A DNA stretch of 64,000 nt from Solirubrobacterales bacterium (lineage in GTDB: Bacteria > Actinomycetota > Thermoleophilia > Solirubrobacterales > 70-9): positions 1 to 64,000 of the forward strand of contig JAGQUV010000007.1 of assembly GCA_020438295.1 (NCBI GenBank), in the 5' to 3' direction. Made by a program: the position numbers and the translations under genes. This document shows positions 11,028-18,922 of this stretch, piece after piece. Positions within the stretch are counted from its first letter, which is position 1. Each line of letters starts with the position of its first letter. Below the pieces are notes generated by a model. That model saw nothing but the letters and a program-made list of their open reading frames with translations, was not told where the DNA came from and did not search any database.

Positions 11028-11783
11028 CTACTGGGCCTGGTTGATCGCCTTGATCAGTTCTTCGGCCGAGTTGGCTGAGACGACCTCGAGGTTGCCGTCG
11101 GCGTTGCGGATCGCGAACGAGGGGGTACCGGTCAGGCCGAGGCCGGTGGCCTGGTCATCGGTATCCAGCAGTTGCTTGTCCCATTTCGGGTCGTTGCGGT
11201 CCTGTTCCCACGTGTCGATGTCGGGGACCCCCGACTTCTCGGCGATCTCCTTGAGGAAATCGTCGGTGACGTAACCGGAGTTCTCGAAGCCCTGGTCTGC
11301 GTAGAAATTCTCGATGAACTGCCAGTACCGACCCTGCAGCGAAGCCGCGAGCGAGGCCTTGGCTGCGGTCACCGAGTCCTCGCCGAGGATCGCCCAGTTC
11401 TGGAATTCCAGGTTGGCGTTGCCGTTCTTGACCGGCCCGGAGATCACGTCGGGAATGATCGTTTCGGAGGCCTGCTTGCAGGACGGGCACTGGAGGTCGC
11501 CGAATTCGACTAGCGTCACCTTGGCGTCCGGCTCTCCGAGCACCAAGCCGTCCTGGGGGATGCCTTCGAGCATCGCGTCCACTTCGCCGCTGCTCTTGGC
11601 CGGCTCGTCGGAGCCCGAGCTGGAAACGACGATCGCGACCACGATCGCGATGATCGCGACCAGAACCGCCGCGCCGATGATCTTGACCATGTTCTGACGG
11701 CGGTCGCTCCCCTTCGCGGCGGCCTCGGCCGCCAGGCGCTTTTCGCGGAGCTCTTTTCTCTTCTTCTGCGGTCCGGTAGCCAT
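11028..11783 (-). CDS. Membrane-anchored DsbA-like thiol-disulfide oxidoreductase
   Basis: 251 residues: a basic cytoplasmic N-terminus, one transmembrane helix (about 33-54) and an extracytoplasmic thioredoxin-fold domain of the DsbA/Thioredoxin_4 type. The active site is C99-P-S-C102 and the cis-proline loop is T-G-T-P-S-F. It would oxidise cysteines in secreted proteins. It lies 16 bases downstream of the VKOR gene on the same strand, so VKOR should re-oxidise it. TAGGAT in the gap could give a second promoter. Confidence 0.9.
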   Translation of the reverse strand: MATGPQKKRKELREKRLAAEAAAKGSDRRQNMVKIIGAAVLVAIIAIVVAIVVSSSGSDEPAKSSGEVDAMLEGIPQDGLVLGEPDAKVTLVEFGDLQCPSCKQASETIIPDVISGPVKNGNANLEFQNWAILGEDSVTAAKASLAASLQGRYWQFIENFYADQGFENSGYVTDDFLKEIAEKSGVPDIDTWEQDRNDPKWDKQLLDTDDQATGLGLTGTPSFAIRNADGNLEVVSANSAEELIKAINQAQ

Positions 11784-11799
11784 AGGCCGGTGATCCTAC

Positions 11800-12273
11800 C
11801 TAACCGCCGGGCCCGGGCAGCGGATCTGTCTCGTCCTGACCACCGACTTGCTGGTCGAGCCCGAAGTAGCCGATCACGCGCGCCGTGTTGACTGCAAACA
11901 GCAGCGTCATGACGGTCGCGCTGGCGATGCACCACTGGCAGATCGCCTGGATCACCCAGAGTTCGAGGTAGGTCAGATACAGGCTGAAGCCGAAGCCGAA
12001 CAGCGAGAGCACAAACGCGGCGATCCGTCCGGGGTCGCGGCGCCAGAGCGTGGCCCCGAGTATCAGGGAGTAGCCGATCAATCCGAACACCGAGACGTGG
12101 ATGCCGGCGATCTCGGAGTATTTGCTCTTTTCCACCGTGGCGCACCCGGTACTACCGCCGACGCATTGGGGGATCCCTCCGGAAGCGACCGTGATCGCGA
12201 CCGTACCGGCGATACCCAGTCCCAGCAGGCACAGCACGACAGCGGCGATTCTGAGGTTGCGTTCGGACGGCAT
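11800..12273 (-). CDS. Vitamin K epoxide reductase (VKOR) family protein
   Basis: 157 residues with four predicted membrane helices. The quinone-facing active site C112-Q-W-C115 and the loop cysteines C37 and C44 are all present, as in bacterial VKOR, which passes electrons from DsbA to the quinone pool. It is the first gene of a two-gene unit with the DsbA-like protein, making a complete disulfide-forming pathway. The ATG at 12273 is 23 bases from the end of ecm, so transcription from ecm may continue into it. Confidence 0.9.
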   Translation of the reverse strand: MPSERNLRIAAVVLCLLGLGIAGTVAITVASGGIPQCVGGSTGCATVEKSKYSEIAGIHVSVFGLIGYSLILGATLWRRDPGRIAAFVLSLFGFGFSLYLTYLELWVIQAICQWCIASATVMTLLFAVNTARVIGYFGLDQQVGGQDETDPLPGPGG

Positions 12274-14307: not shown

Positions 14308-14351
14308 CTGTGAACGGGGCGAATCACCCCCAGCCAGGCGTCGTTGAATGA

Positions 14352-14912
14352 CTACCCGGTGATGATCTCCCCGGTTCCATCCCGGTTGACGTCCCCGGTG
14401 GCAACGCGCACGGGCCCGCAGGCCTGGAAGCGCCGACCGGTCTCGGGCGAGAGCAATACCATCGACCTGGCCCTGCGGAGAACCTTTCGCTGCAGACGGT
14501 AGTTCCGTTTGACCACCGCCTTGCCCTCGGACGAGGCGGTGAAGCGGACCCCCTTGCCGACCAGGCCACCGGCGCCCCTGGTGCAGCGCCTGGTGCTGAA
14601 GGCGAGCCCGTACTTCTGCTCGGCCTTCAGTCCGATCAGGATCGCAATGATGCCCATCGGCCGGGCGCCCTTCCCGGAGGTGCGCCCGTTCTGCTTGGCG
14701 ACCACGAGCCCCTGAGCCGTGCCCGGCGCGTAGATACCCCCGCCGCCGGTGCCCGACATGTACGACGTGATCTGCACGCTTCGCAGCTCGTATGCCCGTG
14801 CCGGCAGCCCACCCGCGGTCAGCATCAGGCCCACCAACAGGACGGTGGTCAGGATCCCCGTGGCGATCAGGCGGGCCGTGTCCCGGTTCGATCGCGTGCC
14901 GGTCTCGCTCAT
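14352..14912 (-). CDS. Secreted protein of unknown function, paralogue of 15130-15759
   Basis: 186 residues with an N-terminal signal or anchor helix (residues about 15-37). The core shares G-I-I-A-x-L-I-G-L-K-A, Y-G-L-x-x-S-T-x-R-C and a basic Y-R-L-x-R-K-x-x-R-R-A-R-S block with the neighbouring gene, so the two are tandem duplicates. The C-terminus V-A-T-G-D-V-N-R-D-G is a calcium-loop sequence like those of dockerin or FG-GAP repeats. GGGAGGAG precedes the ATG. I do not recognise the domain. Confidence 0.65.
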   Translation of the reverse strand: MSETGTRSNRDTARLIATGILTTVLLVGLMLTAGGLPARAYELRSVQITSYMSGTGGGGIYAPGTAQGLVVAKQNGRTSGKGARPMGIIAILIGLKAEQKYGLAFSTRRCTRGAGGLVGKGVRFTASSEGKAVVKRNYRLQRKVLRRARSMVLLSPETGRRFQACGPVRVATGDVNRDGTGEIITG

Positions 14913-15129
14913 GACGTGTCTCCTCCCGCTGTCTGCGTTCTTTCGCTTGTTCTGCCGCGAGCTACCAGTTGCCGCCCTTCCACCGCCGCGGGGGCGGACC
15001 CGCCGGTGGCCGGGGCGTGGTCTCGGTGTGGCCGTAAGTTCGAATCGTTCCTTTTGTCACGAACCTAACACAGGCCCGGCCGGTTCAACCCCGGCGGAGC
15101 ATTGCCACCCCTGGCGGTCGGGTCATCGA

Positions 15130-15759
15130 CTAGAAATCGGCAGCGTCGACGCTGCCGTCCTGGTTGTAGTCACCGGCCAGGAAGCGGGCTTTCCCGCAGA
15201 CCACGAGCGGTCTGTCGGGATCCCCTTCCAGGAGGAGGACCGACCGCGCTCGGCGACCGGCCTTACGGGTCAGCCGGTAGCGCCTGTTCACGTATGCCGC
15301 GCCGTCGGCGTCGCTGGTCACCTTGATGCCACGACCGACCAGCGTTTTCTTCAGCCCGGTTGTGCCGAGGTTGAAGATTCCGCCGCCCTGGCCGGACCCG
15401 CCCTGACCGGACACGCAGCGGGCGGTGGATAGGCGAAGACCATAGCCATGGTCGGCCTTCAGGCCGATAAGGACCGCGATGATTCCCAGCGGTCTCGAGC
15501 CGCGCTTCGACTTCGGACCGGTCTGTGCGCCCTGGAGCAGGAACCCGGCCGTGAGGGAATCGTCTCGGGGTGCGCTGCCGGTGCCGGGCTTGTGGCTGGA
15601 CCAGAGGAGCAGACCGCGCTTGTCCGGGCGCTTGGTGGCCCCGCCGGCGGTCGGACCTTCCCCGATCAGCGCGCCGCTCATAGCGATTGTGGCCGCAAGC
15701 AGGGCGATCAACACCGGACGGCAGATCGAAGGCTTCGTCGAACGGGATTCGTACCTCAT
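15130..15759 (-). CDS. Secreted protein of unknown function, dockerin-like C-terminus
   Basis: 209 residues, signal peptide R-P-V-L-I-A-L-L-A-A-T-I. It shares the G-I-I-A-V-L-I-G-L-K-A block, the S-T-A-R-C cysteine, V-G-R-G-I-K-V-T-S and the basic Y-R-L-T-R-K segment with the gene at 14352. It has an extra glycine-rich insert (G-Q-G-G-S-G-Q-G-G-G) and ends in G-D-Y-N-Q-D-G-S-V-D-A-A-D-F, an EF-hand-type calcium loop as in dockerin type I, stopping after one half-repeat. Function unknown; extracellular location is inferred. Confidence 0.65.
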   Translation of the reverse strand: MRYESRSTKPSICRPVLIALLAATIAMSGALIGEGPTAGGATKRPDKRGLLLWSSHKPGTGSAPRDDSLTAGFLLQGAQTGPKSKRGSRPLGIIAVLIGLKADHGYGLRLSTARCVSGQGGSGQGGGIFNLGTTGLKKTLVGRGIKVTSDADGAAYVNRRYRLTRKAGRRARSVLLLEGDPDRPLVVCGKARFLAGDYNQDGSVDAADF

Positions 15760-15923
15760 CTTGCCCCTTCCCGCCCCTGGGCGGTCCTGCCCGGTGGTTA
15801 CGGCGCATCGGCCCCGCGGCCGGGCTGTTCACTGGCGGATGTTGCGAAAGTAACACAGTCGACCGGAAGCGACAGGTTTTGTTTCGGACCCGGGGGCCGC
15901 ACCCTTTCCGGGCGTGCTGTGTT

Positions 15924-15929
15924 TAGGCT
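15924..15929 (+). promoter_or_regulatory. -10 box TAGGCT, leaderless start
   Basis: TAGGCT ends 6 bases before ATG 15936, with no ribosome site between. No obvious -35. Confidence 0.5.
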
Positions 15930-15935
15930 TTTCGT

Positions 15936-16682
15936 ATGCATTTACTCAACTTCCGCCCGACGACCGGTTCCGCCCGGGTCGCCGTCGCGGCCGCACTCGC
16001 GGCCGCGCTGACCGCCTTCTCCGCTCTGGCACTGGCCGCGGACGCCAATTCGGCCAGCGCCGTGACGATCTACAAGAACGACCTCCGCAGCTCGGAAGGC
16101 CGCGGCGAAATCCGCCAGTACGGCAGCAAGGCAAACTGCGCTCGAGGTGGCTCGAGCTCGGCTTTCAGGGTGAAGATCGGCAAGAAGACCAGGGACTGCT
16201 ACTACTGGATTCCGGTGGTCGGCCGCGACGTACAGATCGCCGCGACCGCCCGCGTGTTCAAGTCCACGCCCAAGGACGTGCGGCCCAAGGTCTACGCGGC
16301 GGTCAACCTGAGACAGGGCAAGAACGGCAGCCGGTACCAGCTCTCGGTCTACCCGAGCGGTAGTCGCTACCGGGTCACCAAGGTGGCCGGCAACGGCAAC
16401 AAGCGTGTCCTTGCCGGCGGCAAGGCCGGCAAGGTCGTGAACGGGTTCGGCGAGGCCAACCGGCTGACCCTGCGGGCCTTCAACGACGTCAAGGGCCAGC
16501 CGGCAGGTTCGGCCCGGCTGCTGGCGATCGTCAACGGTAAGCGCCTGGCGGTGATCGACGATCGCGAGGGCGGCAAGCTGGAGGGCCGGGACTCGACCTT
16601 CTCAATCGGCGCCGACCGGAATGCGACCGGTGCCGCCGGCAGCTTCGTCAACGTGAAGCTCGGCCTTCCCGACCCCTTCTAG
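15936..16682 (+). CDS. Secreted hypothetical protein
   Basis: 248 residues with a Sec signal peptide ending near A-L-A-A-D-A. The mature part has two cysteines (C-A-R-G-G and D-C-Y-Y-W) that could form a disulfide, and a strand-rich C-terminal half (L-L-A-I-V-N-G-K-R-L-A-V-I-D-D) like the LamG or concanavalin-type sandwiches of actinobacterial surface proteins. No catalytic motif is visible. It is divergent from the two paralogous secreted proteins. Confidence 0.65.
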   Translation: MHLLNFRPTTGSARVAVAAALAAALTAFSALALAADANSASAVTIYKNDLRSSEGRGEIRQYGSKANCARGGSSSAFRVKIGKKTRDCYYWIPVVGRDVQIAATARVFKSTPKDVRPKVYAAVNLRQGKNGSRYQLSVYPSGSRYRVTKVAGNGNKRVLAGGKAGKVVNGFGEANRLTLRAFNDVKGQPAGSARLLAIVNGKRLAVIDDREGGKLEGRDSTFSIGADRNATGAAGSFVNVKLGLPDPF

Positions 16683-17064: not shown

Positions 17065-18321
17065 TCAGGCGCCGACTTCGGCCCGGATCGCCCCGGGCCC
17101 CTCGGTCTCGCGCCCGTCGTCTTCGTCGACCGCTCCGACCAGGATTGCGATCTTGCCCTGGTGCTGGTTCTCGTGCATCATCTGGTGTGCACCCGGTACT
17201 CCGTCGAATTCCATGGTCTTCCAGAGGACCGGCCGGACCTTGCCCTCCGCCATCAGTTCGTTCGCTTTCATGCATTCGTAGGCATTGGCGAAGTGGGAGC
17301 CTATGATCTGCTTCTGGCGCATCCAGAGGTAGCGCACGTCGAAGTCCAGGTTGTAGCCGGAGGTCGCGCCGCAGATCACGACCTTGCCGAACGGCTTGAC
17401 CATGAACACCGAGGTGGGGAAGGTGGCTTTGCCGACATGCTCGAAGATGACGTCCGGCTTGTCACCGAGGATCTCCTGCGCCCGCTTCGCGAATGCGCGC
17501 GACACCTTGAAGCGCTCCTTTTCTTCCTCGGGCGTCTCGTTCCCGGTCCGCATCATGCCGGCGAACTCGTTGCGGTTTATGTAGCCGACCGCGCCGAGCT
17601 CCTTGACCAGCTCGCCCTTCTCATCGGACGACACGACGCCGATCGCGTTCGCGCCCGCCGCCTTGCAGAGCTGGACCGCGAACACGCCCAGCCCGCCGGC
17701 GGCGCCCCAGATAAGGACGTTGTGGCCGGGCTGGATCTTGGCCTGGTCGATCAGCATGCGATAGGCGGTGAAGTAGGTCAACCCGTACGAAGAGGCCTCG
17801 GCCCAGGAAAGGTTCTGTGGCCGGGGTAGGAGCTGCTGGGCCTGGACCTTGGTGAACTGGGCAAACGAGCCCCAGGTGGTCTCGTAGCCCCAGATCTTCT
17901 GGCTGGGCGCGGCCATCGGGTCGAGTCCGTGGACCTCGACGTCTTCGTACGAGGCCTGGTTGCAGTGGACCACGACTTCGTCGCCGGGCTTCCACCGGGT
18001 GACGCCGTCTCCGACCTTCCAGACGACGCCCGACGCGTCGGACCCGCCGATGTGGTGCCCGTACTCGGGGTGGTCGCCGTAGCCGAAGACCGAAACCGGC
18101 TTGCCGAGGGCCGCCCAGACGTTGTTGAAGTTGACTCCCGCCGCCATCACCCTGACGATCACTTCGAAAGCGCCCGGCTCAGGCGTCTCGATCTCCTCCA
18201 GCTTGAACGCCTCGTTCGGCTCTCCCATCGTCTCGGGGCGGATCACCCACGCGGCCATCCTGTCCGGGAGCTCCCCGGGCTCGACATCGAGGCTGCTTAC
18301 TTCGGCGAGGTCTACGGACAC
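17065..18321 (-). CDS. ccr: Crotonyl-CoA carboxylase/reductase
   Basis: 418 residues of the medium-chain reductase family. The enzyme reductively carboxylates crotonyl-CoA with NADPH and CO2 to ethylmalonyl-CoA, the signature step of the ethylmalonyl-CoA pathway. Diagnostic features are V-N-F-N-N-V-W, C-N-Q, I-W-G-Y146-E147-T, W-G-A-A-G-G-L-G for NADPH, V-F-E-H-V-G-K-A-T-F and I-I-G-S-H-F-A-N. The Glu and His that hold CO2 in characterised ECR enzymes are kept. The Y-E-T and G-S-F-A-Q-F pattern is nearer to the Rhodobacter enzyme than to the Streptomyces one (from memory). GAGAGGAA lies upstream of the GTG start. Confidence 0.95.
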   Translation of the reverse strand: MSVDLAEVSSLDVEPGELPDRMAAWVIRPETMGEPNEAFKLEEIETPEPGAFEVIVRVMAAGVNFNNVWAALGKPVSVFGYGDHPEYGHHIGGSDASGVVWKVGDGVTRWKPGDEVVVHCNQASYEDVEVHGLDPMAAPSQKIWGYETTWGSFAQFTKVQAQQLLPRPQNLSWAEASSYGLTYFTAYRMLIDQAKIQPGHNVLIWGAAGGLGVFAVQLCKAAGANAIGVVSSDEKGELVKELGAVGYINRNEFAGMMRTGNETPEEEKERFKVSRAFAKRAQEILGDKPDVIFEHVGKATFPTSVFMVKPFGKVVICGATSGYNLDFDVRYLWMRQKQIIGSHFANAYECMKANELMAEGKVRPVLWKTMEFDGVPGAHQMMHENQHQGKIAILVGAVDEDDGRETEGPGAIRAEVGA

Positions 18322-18454: not shown

Positions 18455-18922
18455 CTAGGGGGTCAGCAGGTCGCCTGACGAAGAGATCCGGCTCGGTCCG
18501 ACCACCAGGCGGGCGGTGCCGGCGCTCACGTTCGAGCTGAGCCGGTAGATACCGGACGGTAGGCCGGCGATGAAAGAGCCGGAGCCGTTGGGGACGATCG
18601 GCTGGACCCTGCGAACCGGGCCATCCAGAAAGAGCCGGCCCGGAACCGAGGTTTCGTTCGAGAGCGCAAACCTCACGTCGAGCGGCACGCCCCTTTCGGC
18701 CTGGTTCTGAGGGGCGTTGCGGTTCTGGCTTATATTCGGCTGGCGCTCGAACGGGAGCCCGACCGCCCGGGGTCCGATCTCGATCCCCTTGACGTTGATC
18801 GCGACCGTGACCACCGTCGGAATCGGCGGCCTCGGTTCGTTTTCGTGACTCTCGGCCGAACAACCGGCGACCAGCGCGGCGGTCGCGAGCAGTGCTGCGA
18901 GACAGGACAAGCTTCCCCTCAC
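18455..18922 (-). CDS. Small lipoprotein
   Basis: 155 residues with a lipoprotein signal peptide and lipobox L-V-A-G-C near residue 21. The mature part looks like a single beta-sandwich (V-T-V-A-I-N-V-K-G-I-E-I, V-R-F-A-L-S-N-E-T, G-I-Y-R-L-S-S) resembling a copper-chaperone or Ig-like domain, but without clear ligands. Function not recognised. The start is GTG 18922, with a -10 box 7 bases upstream. Confidence 0.6.
   Translation of the reverse strand: MRGSLSCLAALLATAALVAGCSAESHENEPRPPIPTVVTVAINVKGIEIGPRAVGLPFERQPNISQNRNAPQNQAERGVPLDVRFALSNETSVPGRLFLDGPVRRVQPIVPNGSGSFIAGLPSGIYRLSSNVSAGTARLVVGPSRISSSGDLLTP

Follow-up and report, generated by a model that had tools for sequence, protein, structure and literature searches.

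Two adjacent genes on the minus strand of the window (the whole 64,000-nucleotide stretch of Solirubrobacterales DNA that was analyzed) encode diverged paralogous proteins, here called P1 and P2. They appear to be a novelty peculiar to one species, not components of a docking complex. Each has an N-terminus resembling a signal peptide, followed by a poorly conserved linker, a conserved core, and a short C-terminal loop. We tentatively favor the reading that P1 and P2 are small exported proteins forming an orphan family, which would be closed by a disulfide, clamped by calcium, held at the cell envelope, and acquired as an already duplicated pair.

Gene layout

The tandem lies between a gene of the methylmalonyl-CoA mutase type and a gene for a 248-aa exported protein, beyond which come a 97-aa gene and then a crotonyl-CoA carboxylase/reductase (CCR) gene. 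The features of the locus are as follows.

14352..14912, minus strand: P1, predicted exported protein of 186 aa, paralog of P2
14355..14396, minus strand: C-terminal loop of P1, GDVNRDGTGEIITG, FG-GAP-like, lacking the acid at position 12 (Pfam and motif scan)
14397..14669, minus strand: conserved core of P1, residues 82-172, with C110 and C165 (P1-P2 alignment, 50% identity)
15130..15759, minus strand: P2, predicted exported protein of 209 aa, paralog of P1
15133..15174, minus strand: C-terminal loop of P2, GDYNQDGSVDAADF, with D-x-N-x-D-G-x-x-D-x-x-D spacing and no second half (Pfam and motif scan)
15138..15157, minus strand: CGGCAGCGTCGACGCTGCCG, a perfect palindrome of 20 nt within the final codons of P2 that resembles a terminator (palindrome search and RNA fold)
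15175..15501, minus strand: conserved core of P2, residues 87-195, with C115 and C188 (alignment to the P1 core)
14328..15935, unstranded: 1608-bp interval separating the mutase gene from the 248-aa exported-protein gene, holding P1 and P2 (synteny and DNA alignment)
11028-12273: DsbA-like (PF13462/PF01323) and VKOR (PF07884) genes, ~2 kb from P1 and P2
12297-14327: methylmalonyl-CoA-mutase-type gene (PF01642 and PF02310)
15936-16682, plus strand: 248-aa exported-protein gene, divergent from P1 and P2, with no Pfam or NCBIfam match
17065-18321: CCR gene (TIGR01751, above cut-off)

P1 and P2 are diverged paralogs

An earlier note on this DNA, made from the letters alone, had proposed two tandem paralogous proteins at these positions, and the comparison of the two proteins bears this out. 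P1 and P2 share 72 of 184 aligned residues in a BLASTP search (39% over 184 aa; 103 bits, E 2e-32), and identity rises to 50% when only the core is aligned. Furthermore, the substitutions are of the type seen in coding sequence. Identity at the first, second, and third codon positions is 0.52, 0.60, and 0.40, respectively, with the third position differing most, and different codons specify 30 of the 55 identical core residues (i.e., the changes are synonymous). The estimated dN is 0.55 and dS is about 1.27-1.28, the latter being near saturation. Among the possible frame pairings of the two genes, +0/+0 gives 117 bits and every other pairing gives at most 63.

The composition of the genes leads in the same direction. 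GC3 (0.81-0.90) and codon adaptation resemble those of the neighboring genes and differ from those of the overlapping antisense ORF, which scores far lower. Purine-rich stretches resembling Shine-Dalgarno sequences precede the start codons of P1 (GGGAGGAG) and P2 (GGGAAGGGG). P1 and P2 are genuine diverged paralogs, and the minus-strand frame is the coding frame.

Protein architecture

By sequence, both proteins begin with a charged N-region, continue into a hydrophobic stretch, and then show a plausible signal-peptidase site (in P1, MSETGTRSNRDTAR-LIATGILTTVLLVGLMLTAGG-LPARA), which is consistent with the earlier proposal that the two proteins are secreted. The shared core follows the consensus G[AS]RP[LM]GIIA[IV]LIGLKA...YGL..ST.RC...LVG[KR]G...T...G.A.V.R.YRL.RK..RRARS..LL...CG..R...GD.N.DG. 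and thus holds every common motif that had been named before: GIIA[IV]LIGLKA, ST-x-RC, LVG[KR]G, YRL-x-RK-x-x-RRARS, and GD-x-N-x-DG. The P2 core carries an extra Gly-rich insertion of 18 aa. The mature part of each protein contains two conserved cysteines; the second of these, in the CG motif (C165 in P1, C188 in P2), had been overlooked. Although ~60% of residues have changed between P1 and P2, the two cysteines and the GD-x-N-x-DG motif at the end have stayed the same. The loop starts just seven or eight residues beyond the second cysteine. The mature chains are strongly basic, with pI values of 11.3 (P1) and 10.5 (P2).

Structure prediction, one of the checks proposed in the earlier note, was carried out and yielded strand-dominated AlphaFold models of low confidence, with pLDDT values of 29 for the full-length protein and 46 for the core, both unusable as structures. 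The full-length model contains strands only, with the signal region set apart, and the core model contains strands plus one helix turn of three residues. In the sequences themselves, hydrophobic stretches alternate in a hairpin-like manner with turns rich in D and G. Because this alternation accompanies the strand-dominated models, the core may be an all-beta domain.

Relatives and origin of the pair

The absence of a recognized domain family, which had been suspected at the outset, holds in the database searches: the core has no match at E <0.001 in Pfam, NCBIfam, PHROGs, PADLOC, or PDB sequences. Lineage specificity, also suspected, turns out to be extreme. P1 and P2 are the only two copies in their own genome, and they are confined to that genome among those searched. 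Profile and sequence searches gave marginal matches only, and no relatives, in 49 other genomes of the family, in 231 of the order, and in overlapping samples of ~400 genomes of the class and ~400 of the phylum; no profile match was found in 17 congeners. A peptide-pattern scan of 84,980 species genomes returned a single match, a scan of viral contigs returned none, and tblastn with P2 was negative in collections of phages and plasmids. The earlier idea had been tied to homologs elsewhere that show coding constraint. Such constraint is evident between the two paralogs, but a homolog outside their own genome was not found.

The candidates that did surface were rejected. The sole match among species genomes, in a Steroidobacter MAG (L043), is due to chance, as it lies antisense to a long ORF that we take to encode a SapC-type protein. 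The marginal matches, including L005, L009, L042, L044-L047, and L074-L080, contain internal stops, lie antisense to or out of frame with other genes, are unrelated, or lack the layout of P1 and P2.

The locus itself is well preserved in the genus. Several of the related genomes are incomplete MAGs; nonetheless, the locus is assembled in nine congeners, and in all nine the mutase gene, the 248-aa exported-protein gene, the 97-aa gene, and the CCR gene occur in the same order. By synteny and tblastn, P1 and P2 are absent from the locus in each of these nine. The gap between the mutase and exported-protein genes is about 50-240 bp in the congeners vs 1608 bp here, as judged by synteny and by DNA alignment with the closest congener. 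In a search for remnants of P1 and P2 at these loci, tblastn gave matches at chance level only. As a positive control, the same tblastn recovered the 248-aa neighbor in nine of nine congeners, across which its identity is ~42-83% (42-51% in the more distant ones).

The age of the duplication can be compared with these splits. Between P1 and P2, dS is 1.28, as against 0.67-1.20 between congeneric orthologs (both near saturation), so the duplication dates back at least about as far as the splits within the genus. Given an old duplication and a presence limited to one species, the simplest reading is that a pre-duplicated pair was acquired. It is therefore most likely that the pair entered the lineage already duplicated and settled between the mutase and 248-aa exported-protein genes; the alternative to acquisition is repeated loss. 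The codon usage and GC content of P1 and P2 match those of the host, and thus a recent foreign origin is not visible. Neither a mobile-element gene nor a clear flanking repeat was found in the interval. A phage or plasmid origin was considered and set aside given the negative tblastn and viral-contig results.

The strongest competitor to this account holds that P1 and P2 belong to an ordinary, fast-evolving exported family whose relatives have diverged beyond detection or are unsampled, and whose genes were lost from the locus, or never stood there, in the sampled congeners. We consider this explanation possible, if somewhat unlikely. The exported neighbor falls to 42-51% identity within the genus, so exported proteins do evolve fast here. 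The search profile was built from two sequences only and is correspondingly weak, the large genome and viral scans demand exact short peptides, and the searches covered genomes, viral contigs, phages, and plasmids, with metagenome contigs outside their scope. However, a protein evolving as fast as the 248-aa neighbor would still be found among congeners, and the profile picks up no relative in the 17 congeners, the 231 order genomes, or the class and phylum samples.

The C-terminal loop

The earlier note had described both proteins as ending in a calcium loop. The conserved GD-x-N-x-DG end is present on both, and the calcium binding is putative, as judged from the motif. The sequence Dx[DN]xDG appears as DVNRDG in P1 and DYNQDG in P2, with the key residues invariant, and each protein also has an export signal as judged from sequence. 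The Dx[DN]xDG linear calcium motif recurs in many unrelated folds, EF-hands, dockerins, and the integrin-like calcium blade among them, and a large proportion of its occurrences are structurally or functionally important (PMC3123361). As a DNA pattern, GD-x-N-x-DG is found three times in the whole genome and a reversed-pattern control is found zero times; two of the three instances are the tails of P1 and P2, and the third lies in a non-coding frame in the gcv region.

The two tails resemble different calcium-binding repeats. The P1 tail matches the Pfam FG-GAP family (PF01839) at 14.7 bits (E 0.028, cut-off 22.1) over profile positions 4-21 of 37, and has no Dockerin_1 match. It is closer to the integrin-type FG-GAP calcium blade than to a dockerin, a likeness that went unremarked at first: GDVNRDGTGEIITG matches the loop of the repeat and its first strand, GD-x-N-x-DG-x-x-[DE]-I-I-x-G. 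In contrast to FG-GAP proteins, P1 has one partial, sub-cut-off match of 18 residues, with no repeats or propeller, and the protein ends at the loop. The P2 tail matches Dockerin_1 (PF00404) at 12.2 bits (cut-off 22.9) over profile positions 1-15 of 57. It has the complete 12-residue spacing of an EF-hand or dockerin loop, and P2 stops one residue past loop position 12, the position at which P1 has no acid. The literature yielded nothing relevant on secreted orphan proteins of the FG-GAP type from MAGs.

These partial fits could mean that P1 and P2 are truncated remnants in which a core domain was once joined to an FG-GAP beta-propeller or a dockerin, since reduced to its first calcium loop. 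The partial spans of both profiles are what such a history might leave behind. Yet P1 and P2 stop at the same place despite having diverged to 40% identity, and because both diverged copies do so, the short end is ancestral and retained. Moreover, when the sequence was read in frame past both stop codons, neither an FG-GAP-like nor a dockerin-like continuation was found, and the 50 family genomes searched hold no dockerin. We regard truncation as improbable.

About equally improbable is the proposal that the loop-like end is incidental, with the last codons of P2 shaped by a terminator RNA hairpin and the resemblance to a calcium loop due to chance. The P2 tail codons do form a perfect palindrome just before the stop codon, a feature that the earlier note had missed, and the RNA folding z-score there is -3.58. 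However, the palindrome spans just the latter part of the loop (DGSVDAAD). P1 shares the invariant GD-x-N-x-DG start but lacks such a hairpin (z -1.12), and the stem is not followed by a strongly U-rich tract. The palindrome is best taken as a caution against viewing that part of the P2 loop as purely protein-selected.

Comparison with known modules

Among known systems, the class to which this genome belongs offers one group of proteins that are likewise basic, small, exported, and probably beta-rich: Ig-like Arg/Lys-rich modules (L051-L072) with the pattern G-x-V-x-V-x-L-S-x-x-A-R-x-x-L-R-R-x-R-S-V. P1 and P2 could be divergent copies of this module, with which they share an RK-rich block (RK-x-x-RRARS in P1 and P2) and paired cysteines. 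A profile of 19 collected modules was run against P1, P2, and their reversed and shuffled copies; P2 scored 9.2 bits, above 500 of 500 of its own shuffles, and P1 scored 5.2 bits, above 496 of 500. However, P2 aligns to module positions 13-47 and P1 to 52-87, which do not correspond, hhalign gives a probability of 1.9%, and the cysteine pair of the module is out of line with the cysteines of P1 and P2. Since the registers disagree and the scores lie only slightly above those of shuffled sequences, we do not claim homology, and we rate this relationship as very improbable.

As a separate observation, the Ig-like modules recur in other families of the class, many with a cysteine pair of the C-x-E-x-C type. 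They have no confident Pfam match (the best is DUF7846 at E 0.13), and a search at E 1e-6 detected none of them in the family that contains the window.

The suggestion that the two proteins dock onto a surface complex did not survive. A dockerin requires two loop-helix calcium segments (22-24 residues, duplicated) and a cohesin partner. P2 resembles type I dockerins in its 12-residue calcium loop spacing and its weak Dockerin_1 match, but it offers half of one duplicated motif at most (15 of 57 profile positions), with neither a second loop nor a helix after the first, and searches found neither a cohesin (PF00963) in its own genome (87% complete) nor a dockerin in 50 family genomes; attachment to a cohesin-bearing complex is thus largely refuted.

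Proposed role and neighboring genes

The tentatively favored reading of P1 and P2 as an orphan family includes a proposed mode of action. After cleavage by signal peptidase, each would form a compact all-beta domain of ~100 residues with one disulfide (C110-C165 in P1, C115-C188 in P2), perhaps formed by the DsbA-like/VKOR pair encoded nearby. With one calcium ion bound, the C-terminal Dx[DN]xDG loop would be a structural clamp holding the C-terminus in place and not a docking module, and the strongly basic chain would keep the proteins on the anionic cell envelope. By this account, the pair would have entered the lineage already duplicated.

A bolder version of this proposal, which we think possible but rather doubtful, is that P1 and P2 represent a new species-restricted exported family with an undescribed disulfide-closed fold and a stand-alone structural calcium loop at the C-terminus. 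The pair, duplicated beforehand, would have come from an unsampled source and entered a single member of a genus in which this locus is otherwise fixed. A new fold would also add another context for the Dx[DN]xDG calcium motif. The pair is a clean case of a diverged tandem of orphans at a site where no sampled sister species has such genes, and it raises the question of where such pairs originate. Without a function, it is one among many exported orphan families of uncultured bacteria.

Several observations concern the neighboring genes. The 248-aa exported protein evolves much faster than its metabolic neighbors. Upstream of the CCR gene lies a 155-aa lipoprotein-like ORF (18455-18922, minus strand) with an LVAGC box and no Pfam or NCBIfam match; one congener locus (L036) carries a 48% identical relative of it, also beside CCR. 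Finally, the VKOR gene is present as a single copy in the window and is tandemly duplicated beside the DsbA-like gene in three congeners (L029, L033, and L035), with the second copy in L033 cut off by the contig end.
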